A stretch of DNA of 23,902 nucleotides, taken from IMG/VR virus record IMGVR_UViG_3300037322_000262, positions 1 through 23,902 of that record, one strand, 5' to 3'. Under the pieces are notes generated by a model. It was not told where the DNA came from. It made no database searches and saw only the letters and a program-made list of their open reading frames with translations. The position numbers and the translations under genes are program-made. Origin of the DNA: a virus. Shown one piece after another: positions 7,381 to 18,009 of the stretch; positions within the stretch are counted from its first letter, which is position 1; every line of letters starts with the position of its first letter.

Positions 7381-7416
7381 GGGCAGGGTGGGGTGGCTAG
7401 GGCAGGGTGGCTAGGG
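7381..7416 (+). repeat. G-run repeat, G-quadruplex candidate
   Basis: Six runs of three or more G on the plus strand, arranged as a repeated GGGCAGGGTGG-type unit. It overlaps the last codons of the 7397-7552 gene, whose mRNA carries the C-rich strand. Confidence 0.6.
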
Positions 7417-7552
7417 TAGCTGATGCCCCCGCTAGGGTGCTGCTGATAAGGTCGCTTGCAGACAGGCCTACATAGAGCGCCAGTCCAGCTCCATAGAGGC
7501 GCACAGCCAGCCCTGAAATAAGCCCTCCGATAATCGCTTCCATGGTGATCAT
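7397..7552 (-). CDS. 51-aa small membrane protein
   Basis: ATG at 7552 (MITMEA) with CGGAGA upstream; the in-frame TTG of the -35 box must not be taken as the start. Nearly the whole protein is hydrophobic with small residues (IIGGLISGLAV, GLALYVGL, then a Ser/Ala/Thr/Leu-rich end), so one or two membrane spans are likely. No family recognised. It could be a membrane disruptor or a superinfection factor. The 3' end runs into the G-run repeat and no standard terminator follows. Confidence 0.65.
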   Translation of the reverse strand: MITMEAIIGGLISGLAVRLYGAGLALYVGLSASDLISSTLAGASATLATLP

Positions 7553-7577
7553 GCTCAATCTCCGTTTGTGTGATTCG

Positions 7578-7670
7578 GTTTTTCCAGAAAAGACCGATTC
7601 GGTCAAGCACTTTTTCCAGAAAAAGACGATTTTTAGGGTTAACGAATTTCGCCTTTTTATTAAGGTTAAC
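7578..7670 (-). promoter_or_regulatory. Cassette promoter/operator for the 7397-7552 gene
   Basis: -35 TTGACC (7601-7606), 17 bp, weak -10 AAAAAC; GAATC after both. GTTAAC at 7638-7643 and ATTAAGGTTAAC at 7659-7670. Confidence 0.7.
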
Positions 7671-7688
7671 CGGGAATTACCTACAAAG

Positions 7689-7719
7689 AAAAAGCCCGAT
7701 TTTCCAGATCGGGCTTTTT
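7689..7719 (-). terminator. Intrinsic terminator, bidirectional
   Basis: AAAAAGCCCGAT/ATCGGGCTTTTT hairpin directly after the 7725-8000 gene. Confidence 0.85.
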
Positions 7720-7724
7720 CGGGA

Positions 7725-8000
7725 TCAGGCTTTCGGGGTTTTTACCGGATAAGCCCGAATCATCGGACATAAACAGCCCTCGGCGTTTATGGGGAAAAAT
7801 TCGGTTCGCACCAGATCGGCCACTTTATCGGCGGCTTCCCAGCTTTCGGCGCTGAAACGAATCGTTTTCGGCTGATTCGACCAGCCGAGGTGATAGGCAA
7901 GCCGAGGATTTTTCAGGCCGCACTTTTTCGCAGCGGCAAGCAGTTTTTCCGGATTCTGCCCATCGCTGATGCCCGAGCCCGTTAGTTCAAATCTTTCCAT
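7725..8000 (-). CDS. 91-aa hypothetical protein
   Basis: ATG at 8000 with CGGAGA. The body GISDGQNPEKLLAAAKKCGL, then a Trp-containing region (YHLGWSNQPKTIRFSAESWE) and a Cys-containing end (EGCLCPMIRAYPVKTPKA), look like a compact soluble domain. Single-gene unit with its own promoter and terminator. Function unknown. Confidence 0.72.
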   Translation of the reverse strand: MERFELTGSGISDGQNPEKLLAAAKKCGLKNPRLAYHLGWSNQPKTIRFSAESWEAADKVADLVRTEFFPINAEGCLCPMIRAYPVKTPKA

Positions 8001-8024
8001 GGTCAATCTCCGTTTCGATGATTC

Positions 8025-8106
8025 GTTTTCGCATAACCAACCGATTCGGTCAAGCACTTTTTTCATTTTAATAGTTAACGAATTTCGCCGATCGGTTAAG
8101 GTTAAC
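8025..8106 (-). promoter_or_regulatory. Cassette promoter/operator for the 7725-8000 gene
   Basis: -35 TTGACC (8048-8053), -10 GAAAAC (8025-8030), GAATC after both; GTTAAC 8074-8079 and GTTAAGGTTAAC 8095-8106, 21 bp apart. Confidence 0.75.
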
Positions 8107-8153
8107 CCGAATTTACGATTTTGGCACCCGGCCCCTATTCTCAGCGAATCGGC

Positions 8154-8177
8154 CCGGCCCCATTTCTCAGGGGCCGG
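8154..8177 (-). terminator. GC-rich hairpin after the 8184-8381 gene
   Basis: CCGGCCCC/GGGGCCGG stem with loop ATTTCTCA; no U-run. A partial copy of the arm lies just before it near 8129-8140. Confidence 0.6.
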
Positions 8178-8183
8178 AGCCTG

Positions 8184-8381
8184 TCAGGCATTCAAGGCGG
8201 CGAACAATTCATCATCGCTCAATTTGTCGAATCCATCCGCAGCATTCAGCCGCTTGATCTCAGCAAAGCAAGCCTTGCGGTGGGAGCGGGCCTTGCGCTT
8301 CGCAGCGCGCGTCCCGAAGGCAAGGATCATGTCGCAAAGGTCGAGGTCGGTGGCGATTGCTTGTTCAGTGGGGTTGCTCAT
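8184..8381 (-). CDS. 65-aa hypothetical helical protein
   Basis: ATG at 8381 with CGGAGA. It has a basic middle (RAAKRKARSHRKACFAEIKR) and an acidic C-terminus (DKLSDDELFAALNA). Probably all-helical; the basic patch would allow nucleic-acid contact. No family recognised. Confidence 0.7.
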   Translation of the reverse strand: MSNPTEQAIATDLDLCDMILAFGTRAAKRKARSHRKACFAEIKRLNAADGFDKLSDDELFAALNA

Positions 8382-8406
8382 GGTCTGTCTCCGTTTCCGA
8401 TGATTC

Positions 8407-8488
8407 GTTTTCACACGATTCGCTGATTAGGTCAAGCACTTTCTCCACTTTGATGGTTAAGGAATTTGCCCGATCTGTTAACCTTAAC
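8407..8488 (-). promoter_or_regulatory. Cassette promoter/operator for the 8184-8381 gene
   Basis: -35 TTGACC (8430-8435), -10 GAAAAC. The GAATC normally next to the -35 is TAATC here, with a GAATC deeper in the spacer. Proximal operator CTTAACCATC (contains TTAACCAT), distal GTTAACCTTAAC 8477-8488, GGTTAC 8493-8498. Confidence 0.72.
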
Positions 8489-8511
8489 ACCCGGTTACCA
8501 GCAAAGAAAAA

Positions 8512-8531
8512 GGGCGGGATTTCTCCCGCCC
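8512..8531 (-). terminator. Intrinsic terminator
   Basis: GGGCGGG/CCCGCCC stem followed on the minus strand by TTTTTCTTT. Confidence 0.85.
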
Positions 8532-8538
8532 CTCTTTT

Positions 8539-8733
8539 TCAGATGATCCGGCGTCCTGTCTGCTGAATTTCCCGCCCGTGGGCGGTGAAGCGCGGGCCGG
8601 AGTATTCGGTTGGGTTGGGGATACGCTTTGCAGCCTGTTCGGCAGTGTGGGCGGCGATTTCAGCGCGGGCCTTGAGGACTGCGATTGCAGCGAAGATCAG
8701 GGCGGCGGCGGCGAGGATCAGAAAAGTGGTCAT
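8539..8733 (-). CDS. 64-aa membrane-anchored protein, copy 1
   Basis: ATG at 8733 with GGAGA. The N-terminal segment, about residues 4-22 (FLILAAAALIFAAIAVL), is a clear membrane anchor; the tail is soluble (ARAEIAAHTAEQAAKRIPNP, ending GREIQQTGRRII). Likely a single-pass inner-membrane protein with a short cytoplasmic or periplasmic tail. A near-identical paralogue lies directly upstream at 8891-9085. Function unknown. Confidence 0.75.
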   Translation of the reverse strand: MTTFLILAAAALIFAAIAVLKARAEIAAHTAEQAAKRIPNPTEYSGPRFTAHGREIQQTGRRII

Positions 8734-8758
8734 TTGCTTGTCTCCGTTTCGATGATTC

Positions 8759-8840
8759 GTTTTCGCATAACCAACCGATTCGGTCAAGCACTTTTTCCAC
8801 TTTGATGGTTAACAAATTTGCCCGATCTGTTAACCTTAAC
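8759..8840 (-). promoter_or_regulatory. Cassette promoter/operator for membrane protein copy 1
   Basis: -35 TTGACC (8782-8787), -10 GAAAAC, GAATC after both; GTTAACCATC at 8804-8813, GTTAACCTTAAC 8829-8840, spacing 21 bp. Confidence 0.78.
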
Positions 8841-8863
8841 ACCCGGTTACCAGCAAAGAAAAA

Positions 8864-8883
8864 GGGCGGGATTTCTCCCGCCC
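8864..8883 (-). terminator. Intrinsic terminator (duplicate)
   Basis: Same GGGCGGG/CCCGCCC hairpin and U-run as at 8512-8531. Confidence 0.85.
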
Positions 8884-8890
8884 CTCTTTT

Positions 8891-9085
8891 TCAGATGATC
8901 CGGCGTCCGGTCTGCTGGATTTCCCGTCCGTGGGCGGTGAAGCGCGGGCCGGTGTATTCGGTTGGGTTGGGGATACGCTTTGCAGCCTGTTCGGTAGTGT
9001 GGGCGGCGATTTCAGCGCGGGCCTTGAGAACTGCCATTGCAGCGAAGATCAGGGCGGCGGCGGCGAGGATGATGGCGGTGGTCAT
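8891..9085 (-). CDS. 64-aa membrane-anchored protein, copy 2
   Basis: ATG at 9085. It differs from copy 1 by F4A, L5I, I17M, A31T and S45T, mostly conservative, which suggests both copies are functional. The membrane anchor and basic tail are conserved. It is read from a promoter that lacks the GTTAAC operator. Confidence 0.75.
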   Translation of the reverse strand: MTTAIILAAAALIFAAMAVLKARAEIAAHTTEQAAKRIPNPTEYTGPRFTAHGREIQQTGRRII

Positions 9086-9110
9086 TGGTTATCTCCGGTT
9101 TCGATGATTC

Positions 9111-9139
9111 GTTTTGCCACGATCAATTGATTCGGTCAA
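9111..9139 (-). promoter_or_regulatory. Operator-less cassette promoter for membrane protein copy 2
   Basis: -35 TTGACC (9134-9139), -10 CAAAAC, GAATC after both. No GTTAAC upstream, because the coding region of the 9144-9350 gene reaches to within five bases of the -35. Confidence 0.72.
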
Positions 9140-9143
9140 GCAC

Positions 9144-9350
9144 TTAATCCATAAACTCAAACAATCCAGCGTGGTCGGCTTCCGCACAGATTTCAGTGAC
9201 GCATTGCGTGAGTCGCGGAGCTTCCCGCGTGCCAAACCGTTCGGTGATATATCCCGGCTCGTTACCGTCTTTCAGGTAGCTTTCAACGGCACGTTCCCAG
9301 ACCAAATTAGGGTAGGGGATTCCGATTCGAATCGTTACGCTATTGTTCAT
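9144..9350 (-). CDS. 68-aa hypothetical protein ending at a promoter box
   Basis: ATG at 9350 behind GGAGA. It opens MNNSVTIRIGIPYPNLVWER and ends CAEADHAGLFEFMD. The TAA lies inside the box of the next promoter (ATTAAGTGCTTGACC instead of AAAAAGTGCTTGACC), so there is neither a terminator nor an operator between it and the downstream gene, and readthrough is expected. Function unknown. Confidence 0.7.
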   Translation of the reverse strand: MNNSVTIRIGIPYPNLVWERAVESYLKDGNEPGYITERFGTREAPRLTQCVTEICAEADHAGLFEFMD

Positions 9351-9375
9351 TGCCGATCTCCATTGATGATGATTT

Positions 9376-9467
9376 GGTCTAGGATGATTCACTGATTCGA
9401 TCAAGCACTTTTTCCACTTAATTGCATTTTGATGGTTAACAACTTTCACCAATCTGTTAACCTTAAC
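9376..9467 (-). promoter_or_regulatory. Cassette promoter/operator for the 9144-9350 gene
   Basis: -35 TTGATC (9399-9404), -10 TAGACC (9376-9381); GAATC after the -35, AAATC after the -10. GTTAACCATC 9431-9440, GTTAACCTTAAC 9456-9467. Confidence 0.75.
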
Positions 9468-9491
9468 AGATGGTAACAGACAAAAAGAAAG

Positions 9492-9507
9492 AGGGGCCGA
9501 AGCCCCT
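9492..9507 (-). terminator. Intrinsic terminator
   Basis: AGGGGC/GCCCCT stem with a TTCG tetraloop on the minus strand, followed by TCTTTCTTTTTG. Confidence 0.88.
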
Positions 9508-9511
9508 CCCC

Positions 9512-9658
9512 TTAAACCTTGATCTTGCTGGACAAGAACCCGATCACGTCAACCGGCCCGCGATGCTTGGCCTTAGCGCGCTTGAGAGCCTGCCGGTGCG
9601 ACACTGCCGAGACGATGCCTGAGGGAGTGTTGTTAATGAGGACGGTGTAGGTGTTCAC
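9512..9658 (-). CDS. 48-aa hypothetical protein, GTG start, copy 1
   Basis: GTG at 9658 behind TGGAGA. The product starts MNTYTVLINNTPSGIVSAVS and has a basic centre (HRQALKRAKAKHRG) and a hydrophobic end. The coding region is identical at the nucleotide level to 12750-12896. Small basic protein of unknown function; the conservation may simply reflect recent copying. Confidence 0.72.
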   Translation of the reverse strand: MNTYTVLINNTPSGIVSAVSHRQALKRAKAKHRGPVDVIGFLSSKIKV

Positions 9659-9693
9659 GGTCTTGTCTCCAGCCGGTTGCTTCCGGTGATTCG

Positions 9694-9722
9694 TTTCTAG
9701 GACAGTGAACCGATTCGGTCAA
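9694..9722 (-). promoter_or_regulatory. Operator-less cassette promoter
   Basis: -35 TTGACC (9717-9722), 17 bp, -10 TAGAAA (9694-9699), GAATC after both. The stop codon of the upstream gene (9735) sits next to its GGAAAAAG box; no GTTAAC. Confidence 0.8.
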
Positions 9723-9734
9723 GCACTTTTTCCA

Positions 9735-9935
9735 TCAATAGACGTATTCCTGTTGCAGGTCGCCGTTTTCATCCGTCCAGTCTTGGCGAATATCGACGTG
9801 CAATTCCTCCACTTCCTCCGGCTCATAGTGGCCACGCTGATAGGCAAAAGCTTCCCGCAAGGTGGGAAAGTGGGTAATGTCCCGTTCGCCTTCATATCCG
9901 GCTTTTTCAACAATTACGAATCGACGCTCTGTCAT
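9735..9935 (-). CDS. 66-aa acidic hypothetical protein
   Basis: ATG at 9935, overlapping the stop of the upstream 54-aa gene (ATGA); GAGAGG upstream. It reads MTERRFVIVEKAGYEGERDI, then a Glu/Asp-rich second half (HYEPEEVEELHVDIRQDW). Third gene of a three-gene unit. It ends directly at the next promoter box with no terminator. No family recognised. Confidence 0.7.
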   Translation of the reverse strand: MTERRFVIVEKAGYEGERDITHFPTLREAFAYQRGHYEPEEVEELHVDIRQDWTDENGDLQQEYVY

Positions 9936-10096
9936 TGGTCTTCCTCTCGGCGGGTGGTCTGGCGGCGCTCTTCCATCTTGCCTTGCGCAATGATGGCAGC
10001 CACACATTCGTTGACGTGTTTCCGGCGCTCTTCCCCAAGCCGACGCTGTAGAATTGCCCTGTCACGCTTGTGACGATGTTCTGAAACGCTTGCCAT
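9932..10096 (-). CDS. 54-aa Arg/Glu-rich helical protein
   Basis: The ATG at 10096 shares one base with the stop of the upstream membrane gene (TAATG), and its TGA overlaps the next ATG, so it is coupled on both sides. Highly charged (HRHKRDRAILQRRLGEERRK, then MEERRQTTRREEDQ), probably one or two long helices or a coiled coil. Function unknown. Confidence 0.68.
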   Translation of the reverse strand: MASVSEHRHKRDRAILQRRLGEERRKHVNECVAAIIAQGKMEERRQTTRREEDQ

Positions 10097-10338
10097 TAGC
10101 GGCGAGCCTTACGGTAGCGGTGGGGATACTTGCGGCGCAAGTCTGCATCATCAATCAAAGCCAGCAGTGAAAGGGCGGGCAATGCCAGTCCGCAAAGGGC
10201 GAGGGCATTAAAGAGCATATGAGCGGCTGTCCGAGCCTCAGATGCGAGCGGCACTAGGTCAACACTGGTGACCATAACAAAGGCACCATAACCAGTTAGA
10301 AGGCCAAGGATCATGAGGGTTGCAGAAAGGAAGCGCAT
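10096..10338 (-). CDS. 80-aa two-span membrane protein
   Basis: ATG at 10338 with CGGAGA. Hydrophobic segments lie at about residues 5-24 (SATLMILGLLTGYGAFVMVT) and 41-62 (MLFNALALCGLALPALSLLA); the C-terminus is strongly basic (RRKYPHRYRKARR) and so probably cytoplasmic. First gene of a coupled three-gene unit. Could be a small holin-like or membrane-modifying protein; no family is certain. Confidence 0.72.
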   Translation of the reverse strand: MRFLSATLMILGLLTGYGAFVMVTSVDLVPLASEARTAAHMLFNALALCGLALPALSLLALIDDADLRRKYPHRYRKARR

Positions 10339-10364
10339 GGTTTGTCTCCGTTGTTGTTGATTCG

Positions 10365-10458
10365 GGTCTAAAGCGATTTACTGATTCGGTCAAGCACTTT
10401 TTCCAGTTAGTTTGTTAGTCACATAGTTAACTAATTCGCCCAAACTGTTAACCTTAAC
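10365..10458 (-). promoter_or_regulatory. Cassette promoter/operator for the three-gene unit
   Basis: -35 TTGACC (10388-10393), -10 TAGACC (10365-10370), GAATC after both; GTTAAC 10426-10431, GTTAACCTTAAC 10447-10458. Confidence 0.78.
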
Positions 10459-10480
10459 GCCGGGTTAAAGACAAAAGAAA

Positions 10481-10494
10481 GGGGCCGAAGCCCC
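10481..10494 (-). terminator. Intrinsic terminator of the SciP-like gene
   Basis: GGGGC/GCCCC, TTCG loop, TTTCTTTTG tail. Confidence 0.85.
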
Positions 10495-10499
10495 TTCCC

Positions 10500-10712
10500 T
10501 TATGCTGTCCGATAGTGTTGCAGCCGAGTGATCCGAAGCCCCTGCTGACCCGAGCGATCCAGTGACTTGCACCAGCCTTCGAACTCTTCGCTTGTGATGT
10601 TGTGCCGCTCGCAAACCTCTTCGAGGGTGATTTCTCCGTTGGCCACCTTGGCGATGATGGCGGCCTTGCGCTTGGCAGTGTAGCGGGCGGTGGTCTTGAT
10701 CTTGATCTTCAT
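10500..10712 (-). CDS. sciP: SciP-like DUF1153 cell-cycle regulator homologue
   Basis: 70 aa, ATG at 10712 behind GGAGA. The sequence follows the DUF1153/SciP core: KRKAAIIAKVANG (14-26), TLEEVCERHNIT (29-40), EEFEGW (42-47), GLRITRLQHYR (58-68). In Caulobacter, SciP is a small helix-turn-helix protein that binds CtrA and blocks CtrA-driven transcription; it is restricted to alphaproteobacteria. Cellular SciP is about 90 aa, and the phage form lacks the N-terminal VKYVIGPDG-type extension. Single-gene unit with a terminator. Its promoter carries the GTTAACCATC operator between -35 and -10, which suggests self-repression. Homology is read by eye; the action on CtrA is inferred. Confidence 0.82.
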   Translation of the reverse strand: MKIKIKTTARYTAKRKAAIIAKVANGEITLEEVCERHNITSEEFEGWCKSLDRSGQQGLRITRLQHYRTA

Positions 10713-10737
10713 GGTGTGTCTCCGTTGCTGTTGATTC

Positions 10738-10807
10738 GTTCTAGGATGGTTAACTGATTCGGTCAAGCACTTTTTCCACTTTATTCTTAATTCTGGTTAA
10801 CCTTAAC
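10738..10807 (-). promoter_or_regulatory. SciP-like gene promoter with operator inside the spacer
   Basis: -35 TTGACC (10761-10766), 17 bp, -10 TAGAAC (10738-10743), GAATC after both. Unlike the others, GTTAACCATC lies at 10745-10754, inside the spacer, where a bound protein would block RNA polymerase. GTTAACCTTAAC is at 10796-10807. Confidence 0.8.
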
Positions 10808-10831
10808 AAATCTATTGATTCCGTTAAGGAA

Positions 10832-11050
10832 TTAGCCCTTGCGCGCCAATACCCTCGCGGTCAGGGCTGCTGCCAGCCGAGTCCAGTCGTCAGTGGTGTT
10901 GTGCCAAGGGCCTAGGTTGAGAGCCCGAATCATATTGTTAAAAGGGACGCTGCCTGCTTGCCGGACGTAATTTGAGGCTTGGCGGTCAATCTCTTCCTGA
11001 GAACCGCCAGCGGCGATTGCCTTAGCGATTGCGTCTTTCTTGCTGATCAT
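10832..11050 (-). CDS. 72-aa hypothetical protein
   Basis: The ATG at 11050 overlaps the stop of the upstream gene (ATGA), so the two are co-translated. It reads MISKKDAIAKAIAAGGSQEE, a helical N-terminus, then FNNMIRALNLGPWHNTTDDW and a basic end. Alternating helices with a conserved-looking WHNTTDDW loop. No family recognised. No standard terminator follows. Confidence 0.7.
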   Translation of the reverse strand: MISKKDAIAKAIAAGGSQEEIDRQASNYVRQAGSVPFNNMIRALNLGPWHNTTDDWTRLAAALTARVLARKG

Positions 11051-11208
11051 GCTTCGACCTCCACGATGATGAAAGTAGCGGGGCCATCATGTGCCACGCT
11101 AAGGATGGTTTCGCCTTCCACCAGAAAAGCGTTGGCCATACCAGTGGCCAAGTTGAAGTGATCGGCGTGGAGGTAGAAGGTGCGCTCGGTGGTCTTTACT
11201 TGGAACAT
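11047..11208 (-). CDS. 53-aa hypothetical protein
   Basis: ATG at 11208 behind AGGAGA. MFQVKTTERTFYLHADHFNL and ILSVAHDGPATFIIVEVEA suggest a small beta-rich fold. First gene of a two-gene unit. Function unknown. Confidence 0.7.
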   Translation of the reverse strand: MFQVKTTERTFYLHADHFNLATGMANAFLVEGETILSVAHDGPATFIIVEVEA

Positions 11209-11284
11209 GATCTTTCTCCTAAGTGAATTACCGGCTGAGCCTTGCTGCTGCTCTGCCAGACAGTAGGTGCCAGCCGGTGATTCG

Positions 11285-11366
11285 GGTCTAGGCCGATTCG
11301 CTGATTCGTGCAAGCACTTTTTCCACTTTAATGGTTAACAACTTCCGACAATTTGTTAACCTTAAC
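11285..11366 (-). promoter_or_regulatory. Cassette promoter/operator (TTGCAC class)
   Basis: -35 TTGCAC (11308-11313), -10 TAGACC, GAATC after both; GTTAACCATT at 11330-11339, GTTAACCTTAAC 11355-11366. Confidence 0.76.
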
Positions 11367-11390
11367 ACCCGGTTACCAGCCGAAATATGG

Positions 11391-11414
11391 TTAACGGGGA
11401 GGACTCCCCGTTAA
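11391..11414 (-). terminator. Palindromic hairpin containing GTTAAC
   Basis: TTAACGGGGAG-GA-CTCCCCGTTAA, an 11-bp arm; the upstream side reads GGTTAACGG, so the hairpin merges a terminator stem with a GTTAAC site. No clear U-run. Confidence 0.6.
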
Positions 11415-11425
11415 TCACTTTCCTT

Positions 11426-11716
11426 TCAGGTGCGTTGAGCGATGATCGGCATGGATGCCTTAGCGGCTTCGATCCAAGCGGTCAGGTCGGTGATGGCTAC
11501 GTCGTGTTGCCCACGCTTGTATTTCTTGCCGGTGATCTGCTCCGCGCTGCCCAACATCTTCGTGATGGTCATGCCGCGAGTCGGGATCATGCCGCAAGCC
11601 TTATGCAGCTTGATGGCGCTTTTGAGGGTCACGGCGCGGTAGAGGTGGATGGCGTCGCCGGTGAAGGTGGTGCCGCCATTGTGGTGGGTGACGGCGCTGG
11701 AGTCGTTGGTCTGCAT
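11426..11716 (-). CDS. 96-aa hypothetical protein
   Basis: ATG at 11716 behind CGGAGA. After a polar start it shows AIHLYRAVTLKSAIKLHKAC, TKMLGSAEQITGKKYKRGQH and a helical end TAWIEAAKASM. Small soluble alpha/beta protein. Single-gene unit. No family recognised. Confidence 0.72.
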   Translation of the reverse strand: MQTNDSSAVTHHNGGTTFTGDAIHLYRAVTLKSAIKLHKACGMIPTRGMTITKMLGSAEQITGKKYKRGQHDVAITDLTAWIEAAKASMPIIAQRT

Positions 11717-11742
11717 GGTTTGTCTCCGTTGTTGTTGATTCG

Positions 11743-11835
11743 TTTCTGAACCGATTCTCTGATTCGTGCAAGCACTTTTTCCACTGAGTTTCCACTTTGA
11801 TGGTTAACAACTTTCGCCGATCGGTTAACCTTAAC
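11743..11835 (-). promoter_or_regulatory. Cassette promoter/operator (TTGCAC class)
   Basis: -35 TTGCAC (11766-11771), -10 CAGAAA, GAATC after both; GTTAACCATC 11799-11808, GTTAACCTTAAC 11824-11835. The box-to-operator distance is one helical turn longer than in the short class. Confidence 0.75.
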
Positions 11836-11856
11836 GTGGGGTTAAGGGCAAAAAGA

Positions 11857-11876
11857 GAGGGGGCCGAAGCCCCCTC
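11857..11876 (-). terminator. Intrinsic terminator
   Basis: GAGGGGGC/GCCCCCTC with a TTCG loop and a TCTTTTTG tail; overlaps the stop codon at 11875. Confidence 0.85.
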
Positions 11877-12048
11877 AGATGAATGCGCCCGGCTCGTGCA
11901 AGGCAAGGTGTTCCCGAATGCGCCGGGTTTCCTTGATGAAAGCCTCTTGTTCCCTTCCAGTGAGTTCGTTCCACCGGGTGAAGGGCCGACGTGATGCCGC
12001 TAGGAAAATTGCGTCCCGGCGCACATCGCAAGGGTGTTGCGGTCTCAT
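11875..12048 (-). CDS. 57-aa basic hypothetical protein
   Basis: The ATG at 12048 overlaps the stop of the upstream gene (ATGA). It reads MRPQHPCDVRRDAIFLAASR, then NELTGREQEAFIKETRRIRE. The TGREQEAF stretch suggests a short helix-turn-helix-like or helical hairpin domain. The terminator starts at its stop. Function unknown. Confidence 0.68.
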   Translation of the reverse strand: MRPQHPCDVRRDAIFLAASRRPFTRWNELTGREQEAFIKETRRIREHLALHEPGAFI

Positions 12049-12218
12049 GCCACCACCGCCCAGCGGTCGCGTTCATAAAGCCGGGCGATTTCCTCAGCGC
12101 CCGAGCGGGTGGAGTCGCAGCCCAGCCAATCGCCGCAGAAACGGGCGACCCACTGTTGCGTGGCACGCCCACACCATTCGAGGCGGATGCTATAACGGGC
12201 GTCGCGAATTTTCTTCAT
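12045..12218 (-). CDS. 57-aa hypothetical protein, Trp/Cys-rich
   Basis: ATG at 12218 behind TGGAGA. MKKIRDARYSIRLEWCGRAT, then QQWVARFCGDWLGC and a charged helix. Four Trp and three Cys in 57 aa is unusual; no classic zinc motif. First gene of a two-gene coupled unit. Confidence 0.7.
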   Translation of the reverse strand: MKKIRDARYSIRLEWCGRATQQWVARFCGDWLGCDSTRSGAEEIARLYERDRWAVVA

Positions 12219-12241
12219 GGCTTGTCTCCAGTTGATGATTC

Positions 12242-12334
12242 GTTTTCGCACGAACAACCGATTCGGTCAAGCACTTTTTCCACGTCTTTTTCACTCTGAT
12301 GGTTAACAACTTTGCCCTGTCTGTTAACCTTAAC
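12242..12334 (-). promoter_or_regulatory. Cassette promoter/operator
   Basis: -35 TTGACC (12265-12270), -10 GAAAAC, GAATC after both; GTTAACCATC 12298-12307, GTTAACCTTAAC 12323-12334. Confidence 0.76.
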
Positions 12335-12356
12335 GCTGGGTTAAGGGCAAAAGAAA

Positions 12357-12372
12357 AGGGGCCGAAGCCCCT
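12357..12372 (-). terminator. Intrinsic terminator
   Basis: AGGGGC/GCCCCT, TTCG loop, TTTTCTTTTG tail. Confidence 0.87.
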
Positions 12373-12376
12373 CTCG

Positions 12377-12586
12377 TTAAGATGATCTAGCTTCCGCCCG
12401 CAGTCGGGTCGCATAGCGGGTGTGTCGCTTGTGTGCGCTTTCCAGAAGCGAGAGGTGGGGCCGATAGTTAGGCTCCAAGCGGTCAACCCCCATGATCTTA
12501 TACCAGTAGTGATTCGCGGCGGTCTGGTGATCAGCGGCCCTCCAGCTTGATTCGAGGCCGGTGGGGAGTGGGAAGGGATTGCTCAT
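12377..12586 (-). CDS. 69-aa hypothetical protein
   Basis: ATG at 12586 with CGGAGA. MSNPFPLPTGLESSWRAADH, then aromatic- and His-rich helices (ANHYWYKIMGV, SLLESAHKRHTRYATRLRAE). Probably helical and basic at the C-terminus. No family recognised. Confidence 0.7.
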   Translation of the reverse strand: MSNPFPLPTGLESSWRAADHQTAANHYWYKIMGVDRLEPNYRPHLSLLESAHKRHTRYATRLRAEARSS

Positions 12587-12610
12587 TGGTCTGTCTCCGT
12601 TTGATGATTC

Positions 12611-12705
12611 GGTCTAACTATCTCCGCCGATTCGGTCAAGCACTTTTTCCACTTTAATGGTTAACGCCAAACGTTAATTTGTTAACCATATTCGTTAAGG
12701 TTAAC
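12611..12705 (-). promoter_or_regulatory. Cassette promoter with doubled operator
   Basis: -35 TTGACC (12634-12639), -10 TAGACC, GAATC after both. Sites start at 12660, 12673 (GTTAAT), 12681 and 12694 (GTTAAGGTTAAC): two interleaved 21-bp pairs offset by 13 bp, as in the 15.6-kb cluster. The core 12591-12655 is identical to 22141-22205. Confidence 0.78.
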
Positions 12706-12729
12706 AGATGGTAACAGACAAAAAGAAAG

Positions 12730-12745
12730 AGGGGCCGAAGCCCCT
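12730..12745 (-). terminator. Intrinsic terminator (duplicate)
   Basis: Identical to 9492-9507. Confidence 0.88.
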
Positions 12746-12749
12746 CCCC

Positions 12750-12896
12750 TTAAACCTTGATCTTGCTGGACAAGAACCCGATCACGTCAACCGGCCCGCG
12801 ATGCTTGGCCTTAGCGCGCTTGAGAGCCTGCCGGTGCGACACTGCCGAGACGATGCCTGAGGGAGTGTTGTTAATGAGGACGGTGTAGGTGTTCAC
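12750..12896 (-). CDS. 48-aa hypothetical protein, GTG start, copy 2
   Basis: Nucleotide-identical to 9512-9658: GTG start behind TGGAGA, MNTYTVLINNTPSGIVSAVS, basic centre HRQALKRAKAKHRG. Two identical copies 3.2 kb apart double the dose or reflect a very recent recombination event. Confidence 0.72.
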   Translation of the reverse strand: MNTYTVLINNTPSGIVSAVSHRQALKRAKAKHRGPVDVIGFLSSKIKV

Positions 12897-12931
12897 GGTC
12901 TTGTCTCCAGCCGGTTGCTTCCGGTGATTCG

Positions 12932-12960
12932 TTTCTAGGACAGCTAACCGATTCGGTCAA
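12932..12960 (-). promoter_or_regulatory. Operator-less cassette promoter (duplicate)
   Basis: -35 TTGACC (12955-12960), -10 TAGAAA (12932-12937), GAATC after both. The TGA inside the -35 is the stop codon of the upstream gene. Confidence 0.8.
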
Positions 12961-13292
12961 GCACTTTTTCCACGTGCTAAGAAAAAAGTTTGTTCGCTTT
13001 CGTTCCAATCATATAGCAAAAACTTAGCCACTATCTCCGGCGCTCCCTGATAGGCTTTTTCGAGCCTGATAAGAAAATCAGGGTCGGGCTCTTCTTCACC
13101 TTCCGGCCATCCCGCCATGCCTTCTAACCCGTGAACCTGTCGAGCGGTCAACCCGTGGTCACTTTTGAGCCTTTGCAATAGCTTGTTGATTAGCGGACGC
13201 ATAGCTGTAGCATAGCTAGGGAAGCGCACGAATATCAACGGGCCTTCACTGATAACAAGACAGTAAAGGCAATGCGTGCGCTTCCGTGCCAT
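12957..13292 (-). CDS. 111-aa hypothetical protein, stop codon inside a -35 box
   Basis: ATG at 13292, one base after the stop of the upstream gene. It has a Cys pair (CLYCLV), then MRPLINKLLQRLKSDHGLTA and PDPDFLIRLEKAYQGAPEI, a pattern that loosely recalls Cro/XRE-type helix-turn-helix folds; this is low confidence. Its last residues GKSA and its TGA are encoded by the promoter box of the next cassette, so the natural C-terminus may have been replaced when that cassette was copied in. Confidence 0.68.
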   Translation of the reverse strand: MARKRTHCLYCLVISEGPLIFVRFPSYATAMRPLINKLLQRLKSDHGLTARQVHGLEGMAGWPEGEEEPDPDFLIRLEKAYQGAPEIVAKFLLYDWNESEQTFFLARGKSA

Positions 13293-13293
13293 A

Positions 13294-13560
13294 TCAGTCG
13301 TCTGCCAGCCTCCCGACATAGCAATACGAATTATATTGCTCGGTGTGAATTTCTCCATCCTTGCAAAGCGAATCCGTCCAATCGTTGAAGGCTTGGTCGA
13401 TGCCGACCGTATCAGATTCGCTGTAGGTCTCCAGCACCATCGGCAAGATTTCTTGATCGAAAAGCTTGCTCAGTTCCGATTCGCTGGCAATCTTTCCGTT
13501 GTCCTCTGCGTAGAGTTCCACGAGGTCGATCAGGTCTGCCCGATCCCAAAAGCCAGCCAC
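13294..13560 (-). CDS. 88-aa acidic hypothetical protein
   Basis: The GTG at 13560 overlaps the stop of the upstream 28-aa gene (TAGTG) with GGGGGC just upstream; a GTG eight codons earlier is less likely. Acidic helical protein: DRADLIDLVELYAEDNGKIA, SELSKLFDQEILPMVL, ending YNSYCYVGRLADD. Second of three genes. No family recognised. Confidence 0.68.
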   Translation of the reverse strand: MAGFWDRADLIDLVELYAEDNGKIASESELSKLFDQEILPMVLETYSESDTVGIDQAFNDWTDSLCKDGEIHTEQYNSYCYVGRLADD

Positions 13561-13646
13561 TAGCTGCGCCCCCGTGCGATCCACATGGCAAAGAGGGCGA
13601 TGCGTGCACGCTTGGCGGCATGGCTGCGTTTTTGGTGGCGGGTCAT
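13560..13646 (-). CDS. 28-aa basic peptide
   Basis: ATG at 13646 with TGGAGA at proper spacing. The product, MTRHQKRSHAAKRARIALFA plus eight residues, is extremely basic with a short hydrophobic patch. Its stop overlaps the next start, so it may be a leader peptide that opens translation of the following gene, or a small active peptide. Confidence 0.6.
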   Translation of the reverse strand: MTRHQKRSHAAKRARIALFAMWIARGRS

Positions 13647-13679
13647 ATCTATCTCCATTCGCTTGATTGCGGTGATTCG

Positions 13680-13773
13680 TTGGTAGGCTGATTCGCTGAT
13701 TCGGTCAAGCACTAATTCCATAAATTTTTCCACTAAGATGGTTAACGATTCAGGTGCCGGCGTTAACCTTAAC
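13680..13773 (-). promoter_or_regulatory. Cassette promoter/operator for the 28-aa/88-aa/111-aa unit
   Basis: -35 TTGACC (13703-13708), -10 TACCAA, GAATC after both; GTTAACCATC 13737-13746, GTTAACCTTAAC 13762-13773. Confidence 0.75.
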
Positions 13774-13793
13774 GAATGGTTACCAGCCAAGAG

Positions 13794-13809
13794 GCGGGCC
13801 GAAGCCCGC
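13794..13809 (-). terminator. Terminator hairpin
   Basis: GCGGGC/GCCCGC with a TTCG loop; the tail (CTCTTGG) is poor in U. Confidence 0.65.
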
Positions 13810-13813
13810 ACGC

Positions 13814-14065
13814 TCAGTAGAGATGCGATTCGCATTCAGGCGATTCAGGATCGCCCCAATCGCAATCCAGTTCCTTGATCTGCTTATCAAGGAATCGCCC
13901 TTCCTCGATAGCCTCGCAGGTCTGAAAGTCTCCCAGCCCCTCCCAGCGCTCGACAAACGCAGCACGCAAGTCCTCAGCCTGTTGCGAGGTGCGCGCCATG
14001 TAGGCGGTGGCGTCGCCCGTAGTGACGAGGTGACGGGCGTGGGCGAGGTCGCGAATCAGGGTCAT
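13814..14065 (-). CDS. 83-aa acidic hypothetical protein
   Basis: ATG at 14065 behind CGGAGA. MTLIRDLAHARHLVTTGDAT, a helical centre (TSQQAEDLRAAFVERWEGLG) and a strongly acidic, Cys-containing tail. Single-gene unit. The acidic tail could mimic DNA, which is only a suggestion. Confidence 0.7.
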   Translation of the reverse strand: MTLIRDLAHARHLVTTGDATAYMARTSQQAEDLRAAFVERWEGLGDFQTCEAIEEGRFLDKQIKELDCDWGDPESPECESHLY

Positions 14066-14090
14066 AGAAATCTCCGTGGTGGGTGAAGCC

Positions 14091-14159
14091 GGTCTACCCC
14101 GCTCCACTGATTCGTGCAAGCACTTTTTCCACTAAGTTTCAGGATTGGTTAACCTTAAC
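14091..14159 (-). promoter_or_regulatory. Cassette promoter (TTGCAC class), single distal operator
   Basis: -35 TTGCAC (14114-14119), -10 TAGACC (14091-14096); GAATC after the -35 only. GTTAACCTTAAC 14148-14159; no proximal GTTAAC. Confidence 0.7.
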
Positions 14160-14177
14160 GAATCACTAACAACGGGC

Positions 14178-14357
14178 TTAGCGGTTGTCCGCAAGCCAGT
14201 TCATTAGTTCATCAGGGGTGAAGGTGATTTGATGACAGAAGGAATCAGGATCGTTCGACCACGATACGCTTGCACCCCATATCTCAGCCTTGGCCGCAAT
14301 GACGCAAGCGACCTTGTTGCGGCGGTGCTTATGGCCGCAGGGGCATAGATCAGCCAT
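14178..14357 (-). CDS. 59-aa Cys/His-rich protein
   Basis: ATG at 14357, overlapping the end of the upstream gene by 8 bases, with a perfect AGGAGG six bases upstream. MADLCPCGHKHRRNKVACVI offers C5, C7, H9, H11 and C18 as metal ligands, then a domain ending FTPDELMNWLADNR. Possibly a small zinc-binding adaptor; family not recognised. No terminator is evident downstream. Confidence 0.7.
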   Translation of the reverse strand: MADLCPCGHKHRRNKVACVIAAKAEIWGASVSWSNDPDSFCHQITFTPDELMNWLADNR

Positions 14358-14649
14358 ACATAGCCTCCTTACGCAGGTTGCGTTCATTCTCGGCGTCCAG
14401 AAGGTCACCGAGAGCGGACGCGGTGGTGATACCACGAGCGGCCCACTCAGGAGCGCCCATGAGGGCGAAGGTGGCAGCGTCGCGGTTAATCCACGCGACG
14501 TATTCGGCGAGGCTCCACCCGTCGCCGTCGATCAGGAGAGCGAGGGCGGCGGCGCGCTCGGCGGGCGTCGCGGGGATGCGATCGTAGGCGACGCGCTCAG
14601 CGCGGATGGTGGCGGCGGGACGGGCGGTCTTGAGGGTCAGGGTGGTCAT
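14350..14649 (-). CDS. 99-aa Ala-rich hypothetical protein
   Basis: ATG at 14649 with CCGGAGA. Helical: TARPAATIRAERVAYDRIPA, ERAAALALLIDGDGWSLAEY, ending DAENERNLRKEAMYG. The first gene of a two-gene unit with a Cys/His protein. Function unknown. Confidence 0.7.
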   Translation of the reverse strand: MTTLTLKTARPAATIRAERVAYDRIPATPAERAAALALLIDGDGWSLAEYVAWINRDAATFALMGAPEWAARGITTASALGDLLDAENERNLRKEAMYG

Positions 14650-14682
14650 AGCAAGTCTCCGGCGGCTCCGTGCCGCCTGATT

Positions 14683-14774
14683 CGTTTGCCCTAGTGAAGT
14701 GATTCGTGCAAGCACTTTTTCCACTTAATCGCATTTTGATGGTTAACGATTTGGCCCGATCGGTTAACCTTAAC
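14683..14774 (-). promoter_or_regulatory. Cassette promoter/operator (TTGCAC class)
   Basis: -35 TTGCAC (14706-14711), weak -10 CAAACG, GAATC after both; GTTAACCATC 14738-14747, GTTAACCTTAAC 14763-14774. Confidence 0.7.
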
Positions 14775-14795
14775 ACCGAGTTAAGGGCAAAAGAA

Positions 14796-14813
14796 AAGGG
14801 GCCGAAGCCCCTT
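14796..14813 (-). terminator. Intrinsic terminator
   Basis: AAGGGGC/GCCCCTT, TTCG loop, TTCTTTTG tail. Confidence 0.86.
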
Positions 14814-14816
14814 CCC

Positions 14817-15050
14817 TTAAAATTCGTAGTCTTCATCCATCCCGAAGCCTTCTTCTTCGAGAATCTCGTCTGCAATGTCGCAGGCGTGCTGGACGGTTCC
14901 GTCCCATTCTTCATGCAGGCTGGAATAATCCTGATCTGGCAGGTCAAGGATACCAAGGCCGCAGCGCGATTCGATGCGGGCATTGACCAGCTTCCCGAAT
15001 TGCAGAAAGGTCGGGCGGTCCGGGTCGGTGAAGTATTCTGCGAGGCTCAT
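14817..15050 (-). CDS. 77-aa acidic hypothetical protein
   Basis: ATG at 15050 with GGAGA upstream. MSLAEYFTDPDRPTFLQFGK, then a central HEEWDGTVQHACDIADEILE and a very acidic end (EEEGFGMDEDYEF). Soluble; single-gene unit. Function unknown; acidic tails are frequent in phage inhibitors of host enzymes. Confidence 0.72.
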   Translation of the reverse strand: MSLAEYFTDPDRPTFLQFGKLVNARIESRCGLGILDLPDQDYSSLHEEWDGTVQHACDIADEILEEEGFGMDEDYEF

Positions 15051-15076
15051 GGTGCGTCTCCGTTGTTGGTGATTCG

Positions 15077-15189
15077 TTTCTAGGTGACTCAAGCGATTCG
15101 GTCAAGCACTTAATCCACTATTTTTCACTTTAATGGTTAACGATTTCCACTATTTCGTTAACCTTAACAATCCCACCAGATTCGTTAAC
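15077..15189 (-). promoter_or_regulatory. Cassette promoter with three GTTAAC sites
   Basis: -35 TTGACC (15100-15105), -10 TAGAAA, GAATC after both; GTTAAC at 15136, GTTAACCTTAAC at 15157-15168, another GTTAAC at 15184-15189. The box reads GGATTAAGTGC rather than GGAAAAAGTGC. Confidence 0.76.
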
Positions 15190-15206
15190 CATGGAACGAA
15201 TCAGAA

Positions 15207-15230
15207 ACGGGGAGGGTTCCCCCTCCCCGT
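15207..15230 (-). terminator. Perfect 10-bp terminator hairpin
   Basis: ACGGGGAGGG/CCCTCCCCGT with a 4-nt loop and a short TTTCT tail. Confidence 0.75.
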
Positions 15231-15236
15231 CCTTTG

Positions 15237-15563
15237 TCAAGCCGGGAATGTCCGGCGGTAAAGATAATTCATCGATTCGTTGTCGCTGTGGTCATTAACC
15301 ACTTCATCCCCCGGTGAATCGCCGCCCTGATAAACCAGATACATAGTCCCAAGCTTTTCCCCTTCCGAGTCGCGGAATAGCAGCGTATCTTCTCCGGTGG
15401 TGGCAAGCGCCCCCAGAATCTCGGCACGGTCGCGGGATTTCCTGATCGCCCATGCTTCCCCGTCATTGACGCTGATAGTCCAATCTTGCGCCAGAGCGTT
15501 CCCGACCAAAAGGCGGGCGGCGGCGGCTTCGTTCTTGCCGGTGTGTTGGTCTAGTGAAAGCAT
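15237..15563 (-). CDS. 108-aa hypothetical protein
   Basis: ATG at 15563 behind CGGAGA. It starts MLSLDQHTGKNEAAAARLLV and contains DWTISVNDGEAWAIRKSRDR and LLFRDSEGEKLGTMYLVYQG, beta-strand-like segments in an acidic protein. It lies immediately downstream of the GTTAAC/iteron cluster. Function unknown. Confidence 0.72.
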   Translation of the reverse strand: MLSLDQHTGKNEAAAARLLVGNALAQDWTISVNDGEAWAIRKSRDRAEILGALATTGEDTLLFRDSEGEKLGTMYLVYQGGDSPGDEVVNDHSDNESMNYLYRRTFPA

Positions 15564-15589
15564 GATGTGTCTCCGTTGTCGGTGATTCG

Positions 15590-15705
15590 GGTATGATCCG
15601 ATTCGCCGATTCGGTCAAGCACTTTTTCCACTTTGATGGTTAACAAAAACAGTTATTTTGTTAACCATATTTGTTAACGATTTTTCCGAATCTGTTAACC
15701 TTAAC
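15590..15705 (-). promoter_or_regulatory. Cassette promoter with dense operator cluster
   Basis: -35 TTGACC (15613-15618), weak -10 CATACC, GAATC after both. GTTAAC at 15639, 15660 and 15673, and GTTAACCTTAAC at 15694-15705, spaced 21, 13 and 21 bp. Confidence 0.75.
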
Positions 15706-15922
15706 AAAATCAACCATTTTGTTAACTACTATTTAGTTGCTCGTTTGTTAATCATTTGGTAACCAGACGGACGGACTCCACTCCGAATCAAAATGAGTCA
15801 GTTCATGAAAACTGCCTCGATCCAAAGTGGCCTCGATCCAAAGTGGCCTCGATCCAAAGTGGCCTCGATCCAAAGTGGCCTCGATCCAAAGTGGCCTCGA
15901 TCCAAAGTGGCCTCGATCCAAA
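15639..15922. other. Candidate replication origin or partition-type locus
   Basis: AT-rich DNA from about 15639 to 15765 with GTTAAC at 15639, 15660, 15673, 15694 and 15721, plus GTTAAT at 15747, directly followed by the 16-bp tandem repeat at 15815-15922. AT-rich DNA beside direct repeats, with closely spaced protein sites, is the classic layout of iteron-type origins. No replication initiator gene is in the window. Confidence 0.5.
15815..15922. repeat. 16-bp tandem repeat, 6.75 copies
   Basis: CCTCGATCCAAAGTGG repeated six times without error plus CCTCGATCCAAA. The period of 16 is not a multiple of 3, and no ribosome-site gene uses it. Each unit holds GATC, and CAAAGTGG also occurs in the small-gene promoter box. 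Confidence 0.95.
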
Positions 15923-15926
15923 CCAA

Positions 15927-15946
15927 AGAGGGGCCGAAGCCTCTCT
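15927..15946 (-). terminator. Intrinsic terminator
   Basis: AGAGGGGC/GCCTCTCT (one G-U pair) with a TTCG loop; tail TTTGGTTTGG. Confidence 0.75.
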
Positions 15947-15948
15947 CT

Positions 15949-16212
15949 TTAATCGCCGTCATATTCCTTGGCATTTTCATAGTGAAAATCTTCTTCCGCC
16001 CGCCGGATGATTTCCAGAGGATTCCAACCCTGTTTTACAGCCACGTGCATCAAGCTGCAAATCAGGTCTTGGATGGCTGTATTGGCATCATCCAAATCGG
16101 CCGGGTGTTCTTCCACCATATCCGCAAAATTGCGGCCTCCGTAGGTTTCCACCGTGAAAGTGTCGAGAGCATTAAGCGCCCATTTGGCGCGCTGTTCGTT
16201 AACTGGATGCAT
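15949..16212 (-). CDS. 87-aa hypothetical phage protein
   Basis: ATG at 16212, overlapping the upstream gene by 14 bases, with GAGGA at proper spacing. The stretch DDANTAIQDLICSLMHVAVK plus QGWNPLEIIRRAEEDFHYEN resembles a helical family common in phages (a TAIQDLLxDLMH-type motif) that has no assigned function. Second gene of a two-gene unit. Confidence 0.75.
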   Translation of the reverse strand: MHPVNEQRAKWALNALDTFTVETYGGRNFADMVEEHPADLDDANTAIQDLICSLMHVAVKQGWNPLEIIRRAEEDFHYENAKEYDGD

Positions 16213-16501
16213 CAGACGAGTCCTCGCTATCATAGACCAGTTCAAGAGCGGGTGCGGTCGCCGGGTCGCCCCAGTGGCCATAATAGGTGATAGCCGGGGA
16301 GAGGCTGACATTGCCCCGACCTTCGTCAGGAAAGGTCGCCAAGGTTGCGTAGGAAGTGTCCTGAATAATCCCGCCAGTGATGAGGGAATCATCCATATAG
16401 TGTGCGAAGTTAGCCGCGAAGTGTTCGCGTGCCTCTTCCTCGGTAGCGGCGGCGATGTAGGCAGTCGCGGCTATCTTTACGTCGATGCTGTAAACTTTCA
16501 T
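16199..16501 (-). CDS. 100-aa hypothetical protein
   Basis: ATG at 16501 behind CGGAGA. MKVYSIDVKIAATAYIAAAT followed by EEEAREHFAANF has the beta-strand then helix start seen in many small phage proteins; the C-terminus is acidic (ELVYDSEDSSDASS). First gene of a coupled pair. Confidence 0.74.
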   Translation of the reverse strand: MKVYSIDVKIAATAYIAAATEEEAREHFAANFAHYMDDSLITGGIIQDTSYATLATFPDEGRGNVSLSPAITYYGHWGDPATAPALELVYDSEDSSDASS

Positions 16502-16533
16502 GGTTTGTCTCCGTCGCTTAAGTTCGCCTGATT

Positions 16534-16615
16534 CGTTTGCCCGTTTCTAGTGATTTGGTCAAGAACTTTTTTCACTTTAATAGTTAACAACTTCGGCCAG
16601 TCTGTTAATGTTAAC
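16534..16615 (-). promoter_or_regulatory. Cassette promoter lacking the spacer GANTC
   Basis: -35 TTGACC (16557-16562), weak -10 CAAACG. The spacer starts AAATC, so the usual GAATC is lost there but kept after the -10. GTTAAC 16583-16588, GTTAATGTTAAC 16604-16615. Confidence 0.65.
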
Positions 16616-16636
16616 GATCCGTTACCAAATTGAAAA

Positions 16637-16710
16637 CCCGGCCCTTGTTCTCAGTGGGTAGGGTCCCGCTGGTGTTTGGAAACCCGGCCCCTGTTCTCAG
16701 GGTGCCGGGT
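16637..16710 (-). terminator. Tandem terminator hairpins
   Basis: ACCCGGC/GCCGGGT (16682-16688, 16704-16710) with TTCTCAG in the loop, preceded toward lower coordinates by a decayed copy of the same hairpin at about 16637-16664. Confidence 0.65.
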
Positions 16711-16717
16711 CCCGCCG

Positions 16718-17026
16718 TTAGCTGCGAATGTCGAGGTAGGTGAACGCCCGGTTGAGGTCGCCGTCCCTATCATATTGGCTTACCCTGCTCCGGTAGGCCC
16801 GTTCGGCATCTTCCCGCGTTTCGCAGTAGTCCCCGTAATAATAGCCACCGTCTTGTAGGTTGCCGAAGTGAACCACGAAGGGGTGCCGGGTGTTATCCGG
16901 CAAACTGCGGATCACCACGCATCCCGGTGCGTTGCAGCCACGTCCGGCCATGCCGTAGAACTTGAGGGATTCACCTTGCATCCGATCCACGATCTTGCGT
17001 TCGCCGTAAGTGTAAGGGTTATTCAT
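16718..17026 (-). CDS. 102-aa hypothetical protein, Tyr-rich
   Basis: ATG at 17026 behind AGGAGA. MNNPYTYGERKIVDRMQGES, then CVVIRSLPDNTRHPFVVHFG and a Tyr-rich YYYGDYCETREDAERAYRSR. Likely a compact alpha/beta fold. Single-gene unit. Function unknown. Confidence 0.73.
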   Translation of the reverse strand: MNNPYTYGERKIVDRMQGESLKFYGMAGRGCNAPGCVVIRSLPDNTRHPFVVHFGNLQDGGYYYGDYCETREDAERAYRSRVSQYDRDGDLNRAFTYLDIRS

Positions 17027-17063
17027 GGTCTTTCTCCTGTTTTCCGGTCTTTTCCGGTAACCC

Positions 17064-17133
17064 TGATTCGCATTTTCCAGCGATTCGGTCAAGCACTTTT
17101 TCCACTTATTTGTAAACCGGTGTTAACCTTAAC
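17064..17133 (-). promoter_or_regulatory. Cassette promoter with displaced GANTC
   Basis: -35 TTGACC (17087-17092). The position of the -10 reads GAATCA, so the second GANTC sits in the hexamer itself. GTTAACCTTAAC 17122-17133. Probably weak. Confidence 0.6.
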
Positions 17134-17155
17134 AACCAGTTACCAGAAAAGAGAA

Positions 17156-17185
17156 ACCCGGCGGCGTTTCTCAGCGCCACCGGGT
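17156..17185 (-). terminator. Terminator hairpin
   Basis: ACCCGGCGGCG/CGCCACCGGGT with one mismatch and loop TTTCTCAG; tail TTTCTCTTTTC. Confidence 0.78.
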
Positions 17186-17191
17186 CCCTTG

Positions 17192-17830
17192 TCAGTCTTC
17201 CCGCGTCCCGTCTACGCGAAAGGTGTATTCATTCGCTTCCATCCCGGTGGTAATCGACTCATCGCTGGAAAGATATTCGTCTTCCTCGCGCAGCTTGGAA
17301 TAGAGCCAGCGCGATAACTCCTCGCAGGCTTCCCGAATCGCCGTCTCGGATTCGGTCTCGGCGTCGCTGCCATACATATAGCAGCCATCCTTAAGGACTT
17401 CGACAATCTCATAGCCGCGCCGATCATCAAACCGAATCTTGGCGCTGATTTGCCAGAAGTTGCGCTTCTGCATTTCTTGCAGCGATTCGGCGATTGCGTG
17501 CAAGGTCTGATCCTCAGGGGCGTAAGCCTTGACAGCAGCCGCGCCTCCCTTGGCGTAACTATAGCGTGCCTCGAAGCCTGCGAAGTCGCTTTGACAATAA
17601 CCAAGGCTCCACCAGACGTTGGGCTCTTCACGTGTGTTGCCATTCATCAGCCGCACACTGTGAGTCTTGAGGGTGAAGCCCATCAGCTTGACGATTTCAG
17701 CGAAGTCTTCAATCGTCGCGCTATAATCGCTGGCGTCCCGGCATTCGTTCCACCAGCTTTTTGCGGTCTCCTTGGCGGAGTCACTTAATTCACCATAGGT
17801 GTAGAGCGTGATTGTCTTTTCCGTTGGCAT
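17192..17830 (-). CDS. 212-aa conserved phage hypothetical protein
   Basis: ATG at 17830 with AAGGGA upstream. The start TLYTYGELSDSAKETAKSWW matches a widespread phage family (ELSDxAKExAxxW), sometimes labelled an antitoxin without evidence. It has a Trp/Tyr-rich middle and an acidic C-terminus. It is the longest gene of the small-gene array and is second after the 43-aa basic protein. Function unknown. Confidence 0.8.
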   Translation of the reverse strand: MPTEKTITLYTYGELSDSAKETAKSWWNECRDASDYSATIEDFAEIVKLMGFTLKTHSVRLMNGNTREEPNVWWSLGYCQSDFAGFEARYSYAKGGAAAVKAYAPEDQTLHAIAESLQEMQKRNFWQISAKIRFDDRRGYEIVEVLKDGCYMYGSDAETESETAIREACEELSRWLYSKLREEDEYLSSDESITTGMEANEYTFRVDGTRED

Positions 17831-17841
17831 GGCCGAGTCCC

Positions 17842-17973
17842 TTAGAATGCGTTGACGCGGGTGAAGCTTTGACGCTCAGTCTTTTGACGACGTGCCTTGC
17901 GGCGTTCCAGCTTGTCGGCGCGATCAACGCGCTTGAGGCTTCCGTCGGTCTTTTCCTTGAAAATGATTCGCAC
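17842..17973 (-). CDS. 43-aa basic protein, GTG start
   Basis: GTG at 17973 with GGAG eight bases upstream. MRIIFKEKTDGSLKRVDRAD, then a run of Arg/Lys/Glu (KLERRKARRQKTERQSF). Probably one long basic helix that could bind nucleic acid or a ribosome. It is the first gene of the unit with the 212-aa protein. Confidence 0.66.
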   Translation of the reverse strand: MRIIFKEKTDGSLKRVDRADKLERRKARRQKTERQSFTRVNAF

Positions 17974-18009
17974 TGTCTATCTCCACCGGCGTTCATTCGC
18001 CGTGACTTG

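Follow-up and report, generated by a model that had tools for sequence, protein, structure and literature searches.

SciP is a bacterial protein that restrains CtrA, the master regulator of the cell cycle. In Caulobacter, CtrA recognizes TTAA-N7-TTAA sites and TTAA half-sites resembling TTAACAT, and half-sites near the -10 element repress, as at ctrA P1, where a GANTC site at -29 is combined with a half-site at -14 (PMC4287350). The motif of Caulobacter SciP is GCGAC (PMC4287350). CtrA sites and a GcrA homologue are already known from alphaproteobacterial phages; CtrA binds genes of other phages of this host class and either activates or represses them, and in a Sphingomonas phage TGCGTTAACCAT repeats lie at predicted CtrA sites (PMC9437464). 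Here we describe a phage that carries a shortened SciP (DUF1153) as one cassette of an array of small genes. Carriage by a phage of SciP, which antagonizes CtrA, appears to be unreported, as we found no earlier report of a virus with SciP in the literature searched, which mostly excludes subscription journals.

The window (the whole stretch of DNA analysed, 23,902 nt) is a 23.9-kb virus fragment, the first part of which holds capsid-side genes (portal and scaffolding) and PhoH, with the array that contains sciP beyond them (Table 1). Each minus-strand cassette of this array comprises a terminator, a sigma70-type promoter with a GTTAAC module upstream of it and, as a rule, a single small gene, and the promoters follow the layout AAGTGC-TTGACC-GAATC-N12-TAGAAA-CGAATC. 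The isolates nearest to the window are the Erythrobacter phages XM05 (PV416404) and vB_EliS-L02 (hereafter L02), the latter described as CbK-like (PMC9127768). The virus is a large CbK-like siphophage, probably with a marine host, Erythrobacter or close kin.

Several other features of the array and of its relatives were recorded. A 279-bp cassette occurs twice (9456-9734 and 12694-12972) at 99% identity, a recent duplication, and a second duplicated pair (8395-8694 and 8747-9046) is 93% identical. The 16-bp unit GCCTCGATCCAAAGTG is present in five to six perfect copies, arranged in tandem immediately before a terminator, at 15798-15941. In XM05, eight GTTAAC sites are packed into about 140 bp (97682-97830) at the upstream edge of the array, before the terminase genes. 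Another promoter family with a conserved spacer, TTGACG-AnCCGGAAGA(A/T)T(T/C)GTCC-TATTCG-ATTCG, is found outside the array (XM05 109231-128825; G001 33571-64297).

Table 1. Positions of the features of the sciP locus in the window and of the tail-gene promoter with a spacer site in six phages.
Feature	Position	Strand	Remarks
One-gene cassette array holding sciP (~30 cassettes)	7397..23902	-	Promoter, small ORF and terminator per unit
sciP-like gene, 70 aa, DUF1153	10500..10712	-	Pfam PF06627; NCBIfam NF051866; PDB relatives 2jrt and 2oa4
Upstream element GTTAAGGTTAAC	10796..10807	-	In the sciP cassette
-35 element TTGACC	10761..10766	-	Place and sequence shared by the majority of the 146 array promoters
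GAATC (GANTC) right after -35	10756..10760	-	136/146 array promoters
Candidate operator GTTAACCATC in spacer, containing TTAACCAT	10745..10754	-	Among array promoters, TTAA in spacer at sciP only
-10 element TAGAAC	10738..10743	-	17-bp spacing; array consensus TAGAAA/TAGACC
GAATC (GANTC) right after -10	10733..10737	-	135/146 array promoters
Terminator hairpin GGGGCTTCGGCCCC, then T-rich run	10470..10494	-	Read from the sequence; recurs in other cassettes
Tail promoter with spacer site, G001	111027		
Tail promoter with spacer site, L02	11369		
Tail promoter with spacer site, XM05	67288		
Tail promoter with spacer site, G002 (L231)	6699		
Tail promoter with spacer site, G004 (L235)	15494		
Tail promoter with spacer site, G392 (L237)	9989		

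A preliminary description of this DNA had assigned the 70-aa product to the DUF1153/SciP core, and an HMM search against Pfam DUF1153 bore this out (PF06627; E 6.1e-21, 74.8 bits, gathering cut-off 23.5). Against the NCBIfam equivalog for the CtrA inhibitor SciP (NF051866) the protein scored 72.8 bits, below the cut-off of 100, and matched model positions 28-90 only; the N-terminal segment before the HTH is missing from all phage copies of the window clade and from that of XM05. An AlphaFold2 model of the protein was of moderate confidence (mean pLDDT 71), and its best PDB match was the DUF1153 structure 2jrt, with a probability of 0.99 but an E value of 0.06 and an rmsd of 8.4. It was the sole product with a Pfam family above cut-off among the array proteins scanned, none of the 20 further array proteins submitted to the Pfam scan exceeding it. 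For one array protein of 97 aa (20050-20343), the match to an Anti-TRAP-like zinc motif is weak (E 1.5e-4, under the Pfam cut-off). In a tree built on a short alignment and with unsure rooting, the phage proteins formed one group apart from bacterial SciP (support 96/92). Over the core, identity to the nearest bacterial copies is about 52-54%, and the genomes that hold these copies also encode GcrA. A search of 50,697 phage records yielded no SciP gene besides that of XM05; the XM05 protein (XM05_97) as query recovered no further viral contigs, and the phage SciP P0001, as query alone, recovered no bacterial genomes. A third phage DUF1153 subfamily, of 79 aa, is present at L192 1477-1716 (G394) and in L193 (G392), with the ordinary spacer GAATCGGTGGAATAATA.

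The sciP promoter was compared with the other array promoters. Along the minus strand it runs TTGACC, GAATC, A, GTTAACCATC, C, TAGAAC and GAATC, followed by GGAG and the ATG at 10712. The N12 of sciP is AGTTAACCATCC, so that an operator repeated elsewhere in the array falls inside the spacer, and this anatomy confirms the placement between -35 and -10 given in the preliminary description. The cassette lacks GTTAACCAT, which is present in many others 26 nt upstream of -35. With at most one mismatch allowed, the window contains 21 copies of GTTAACCATC, compared with an expectation of 0.9, and no shuffle attained that count. Eight exact copies sit upstream of array promoters, and with near copies included about 14 of 31 promoters have the upstream site; the earlier statement that the other promoters carry it upstream is therefore a simplification. 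TTAA was found in the spacer of 4 of the 146 array promoters of five phages, all four belonging to sciP, and in none of 37 further array promoters from two more records (G392 and G396). The claim that sciP has the only promoter with a spacer site thus holds within the array (approximately 183 promoters in seven related phage records), although not outside it, as a tail-gene promoter described below shares the feature. Both GANTC sites are present in 126 of the 146 promoters, and the N of the second is A in 134 of 135, which is tighter than GANTC recognition by CcrM/GcrA demands. GcrA is encoded in all five host-like genomes, and a search of six of the related phage records for a phage-encoded GcrA gave none.

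Seven IMG/VR contigs contain the pattern TTGACCGAATCRGTTAACCATCCTAG, which describes the sciP promoter core, in one copy each. They are exactly the seven that encode a SciP homologue of 86-89% identity, although, with L013-L017 identical to one another, they add no more than three distinct versions to that of the window. All four distinct promoter versions have the spacer TTAA, and their spacers differ at zero or one position, with no difference within the 10-mer, whereas in other cassettes, at comparable protein identity, the spacers of orthologues usually show differences at several of the 12 positions. It might be argued that the match arose by neutral drift of a variable N12 and has no regulatory role. 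The nearest cassette promoter (9404), with the spacer AGTGAATCATCC, is only two substitutions away, the sciP copies all go back to one event, and the adjoining UTR is likewise well conserved. However, the sciP spacer reproduces exactly the operator that the array itself repeats, and column-shuffled spacers yield GTTAACCATC at a frequency of 1.4e-4; together with the near invariance of the sciP spacer, this makes drift an improbable explanation. Since the UTR is also conserved and the distinct versions are few, the case rests on the identity and uniqueness of the motif more than on conservation alone. The spacer site is real and tied to sciP, and it is kept in all relatives of the window clade. 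A candidate second case, GTTAACCATC in the spacer before XM05_205 (XM05 126877), was rejected because it is absent from the G001 orthologue.

Scanning for TTAAC shortly downstream of TTGAC revealed a conserved tail-gene promoter with TTAACC between -35 and -10 in six phages (Table 1), five of which have TTAACCAT. It takes the form TTGACA-NNTTAACCAT-N-TTC-N-GTT-ACCAT, the XM05 version being TTAACCTT. The portal and scaffolding promoters of the window have no such spacer site. A site in the spacer is therefore a mark of sciP and of at least one late promoter; in the array the site stands upstream.

Which protein reads the site is a matter of weighing candidates. Host CtrA, as CtrA~P, is a more likely reader than phage SciP. 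TTAACC fits the known CtrA half-site, and it is denser in the array than outside it (4.0/kb vs. 0.23/kb in XM05; 3.1 vs. 0.36 in G001); TTAA sites are clustered in one genome region in XM05, and the clustering in L02 is alike. Upstream modules of the form [TG]TAA-N7-TTA[AC] were found at 92 of 146 promoters, compared with 2-5 at spacings of N5, N6 and N8, and the strict TTAA-N7-TTAA 12 times among the 146; these counts are non-independent, since the cassettes are duplicates of each other. Of 31 bacterial sciP genes, 9 are preceded by TTAACC, compared with 1.6 expected.

The preliminary description had raised a feedback loop, in which one factor could activate the array and repress the regulator gene, or the reverse. 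As an alternative reader, phage SciP itself would bind GTTAACCATC, repress its own gene and act on the rest of the array from the upstream sites, giving a loop through the phage protein. The appeal of this alternative is that the product is an HTH protein, that its gene is the sole one of the array with a spacer operator, and that gene and operator co-occur one-to-one. However, L02 has no DUF1153 gene and yet retains a similar array, 25 copies of GTTAAGGTTAAC and the spacer site at the tail gene. In XM05 and G392, whose sciP genes are more distant, the sciP spacers are ordinary even though the arrays carry the motif. Moreover, the GCGAC/GTCGC motif expected from Caulobacter SciP is not enriched at array promoters, where it is rare and unplaced. 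On these three grounds we disfavor the loop through phage SciP, and autoregulation seems quite unlikely.

A further result weakens the CtrA reading: neither GTTAACCAT nor TTAAC-N6-TTAA was enriched in four host-like genomes, which were picked by SciP similarity alone, and the site may therefore belong to a phage factor. Another phage regulator, such as the XRE/CI-like protein of XM05 and L02, could read dispersed GTTAAC sites in the manner of the mycobacteriophage L5 stoperators, with sciP as one of its repressed genes. Both isolates encode an XRE-type regulator and a tyrosine recombinase, and the exact GTTAACCAT 9-mer is a feature of the phages that is not enriched in the host-like genomes. 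However, GTTAAC is missing from the xre promoters of both isolates, the portion of G001 examined yielded no homologue of the XRE protein of XM05, and the fit of TTAACC to the CtrA half-site speaks for the host protein instead. We consider such a regulator an unlikely reader.

Tentatively, and with a likelihood that falls a little short of even, we propose that the reader of the CtrA-like site represses phage sciP and that SciP then damps CtrA-dependent transcription. The reader of TTAACCAT, most likely host CtrA~P, would block RNA polymerase at the sciP and tail promoters; at the other cassettes the same reader would sit upstream, where it may activate transcription or leave it alone. Phage sciP would then be expressed at low CtrA or after its withdrawal. 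Host sciP, which has its TTAACC sites far upstream, behaves in the opposite way. If phage SciP damps CtrA-dependent transcription as host SciP does, the CtrA-off state would reinforce itself, as in a mutual-inhibition switch. Repression through the spacer site, CtrA as the reader and the action of SciP on CtrA are the parts of this model that we infer. Two observations count against it: the N-terminal segment of host SciP is missing from the phage protein, and the spacer site is missing from the more distant phage sciP genes. A more specific and rather doubtful version is a toggle, in which CtrA~P, bound at the spacer half-sites, would silence both sciP and the late promoter of the tail gene while the array is expressed; as CtrA falls, SciP would be made, residual CtrA disabled and the late program locked in. 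The suggestion in the preliminary description that the phage may seize the host cell-cycle circuit is plausible, although the shortened protein makes it tentative.

If CtrA does read the spacer site, the link from CtrA to sciP has the opposite sign in the phage and in the host, and the locus would provide a compact, testable case of a virus whose late genes are timed by the cell cycle of its host. The isolates XM05, with a homologue that lacks the spacer site, and L02, which has no SciP, provide natural contrasts.

Compared with described systems, the phage protein resembles SciP of Caulobacter and other Alphaproteobacteria in its DUF1153 core with an HTH and in its C-terminal GLR.TR.Q.YR motif. 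It differs from bacterial SciP in that it lacks the N-terminal P.GEPLT..LP.P.T segment, scores under the equivalog cut-off and is phage-borne, and its promoter has TTAACC in the spacer rather than upstream. As in the phages with clustered CtrA sites (LPEG) CbK, Delta and Cp1R7A-A1 (PMC9437464), TTAA-type sites are concentrated in a single region of small genes of unknown function, where in the LPEG phages CtrA is known to activate or repress. Here the sites lie in about 30 repeated one-gene cassettes and are accompanied by SciP, and Erythrobacter phages are absent from that report. A phage homologue of a host cell-cycle regulator has a parallel in the GcrA homologue of phiCbK (Gill 2012, cited in PMC9437464), although the regulator here is SciP and not GcrA. 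Finally, the promoter has nearly the same layout as Caulobacter ctrA P1, with GANTC near -29 relative to an inferred start and, between that start and -35, a CtrA-type half-site, but it drives a phage homologue of the CtrA antagonist rather than ctrA.
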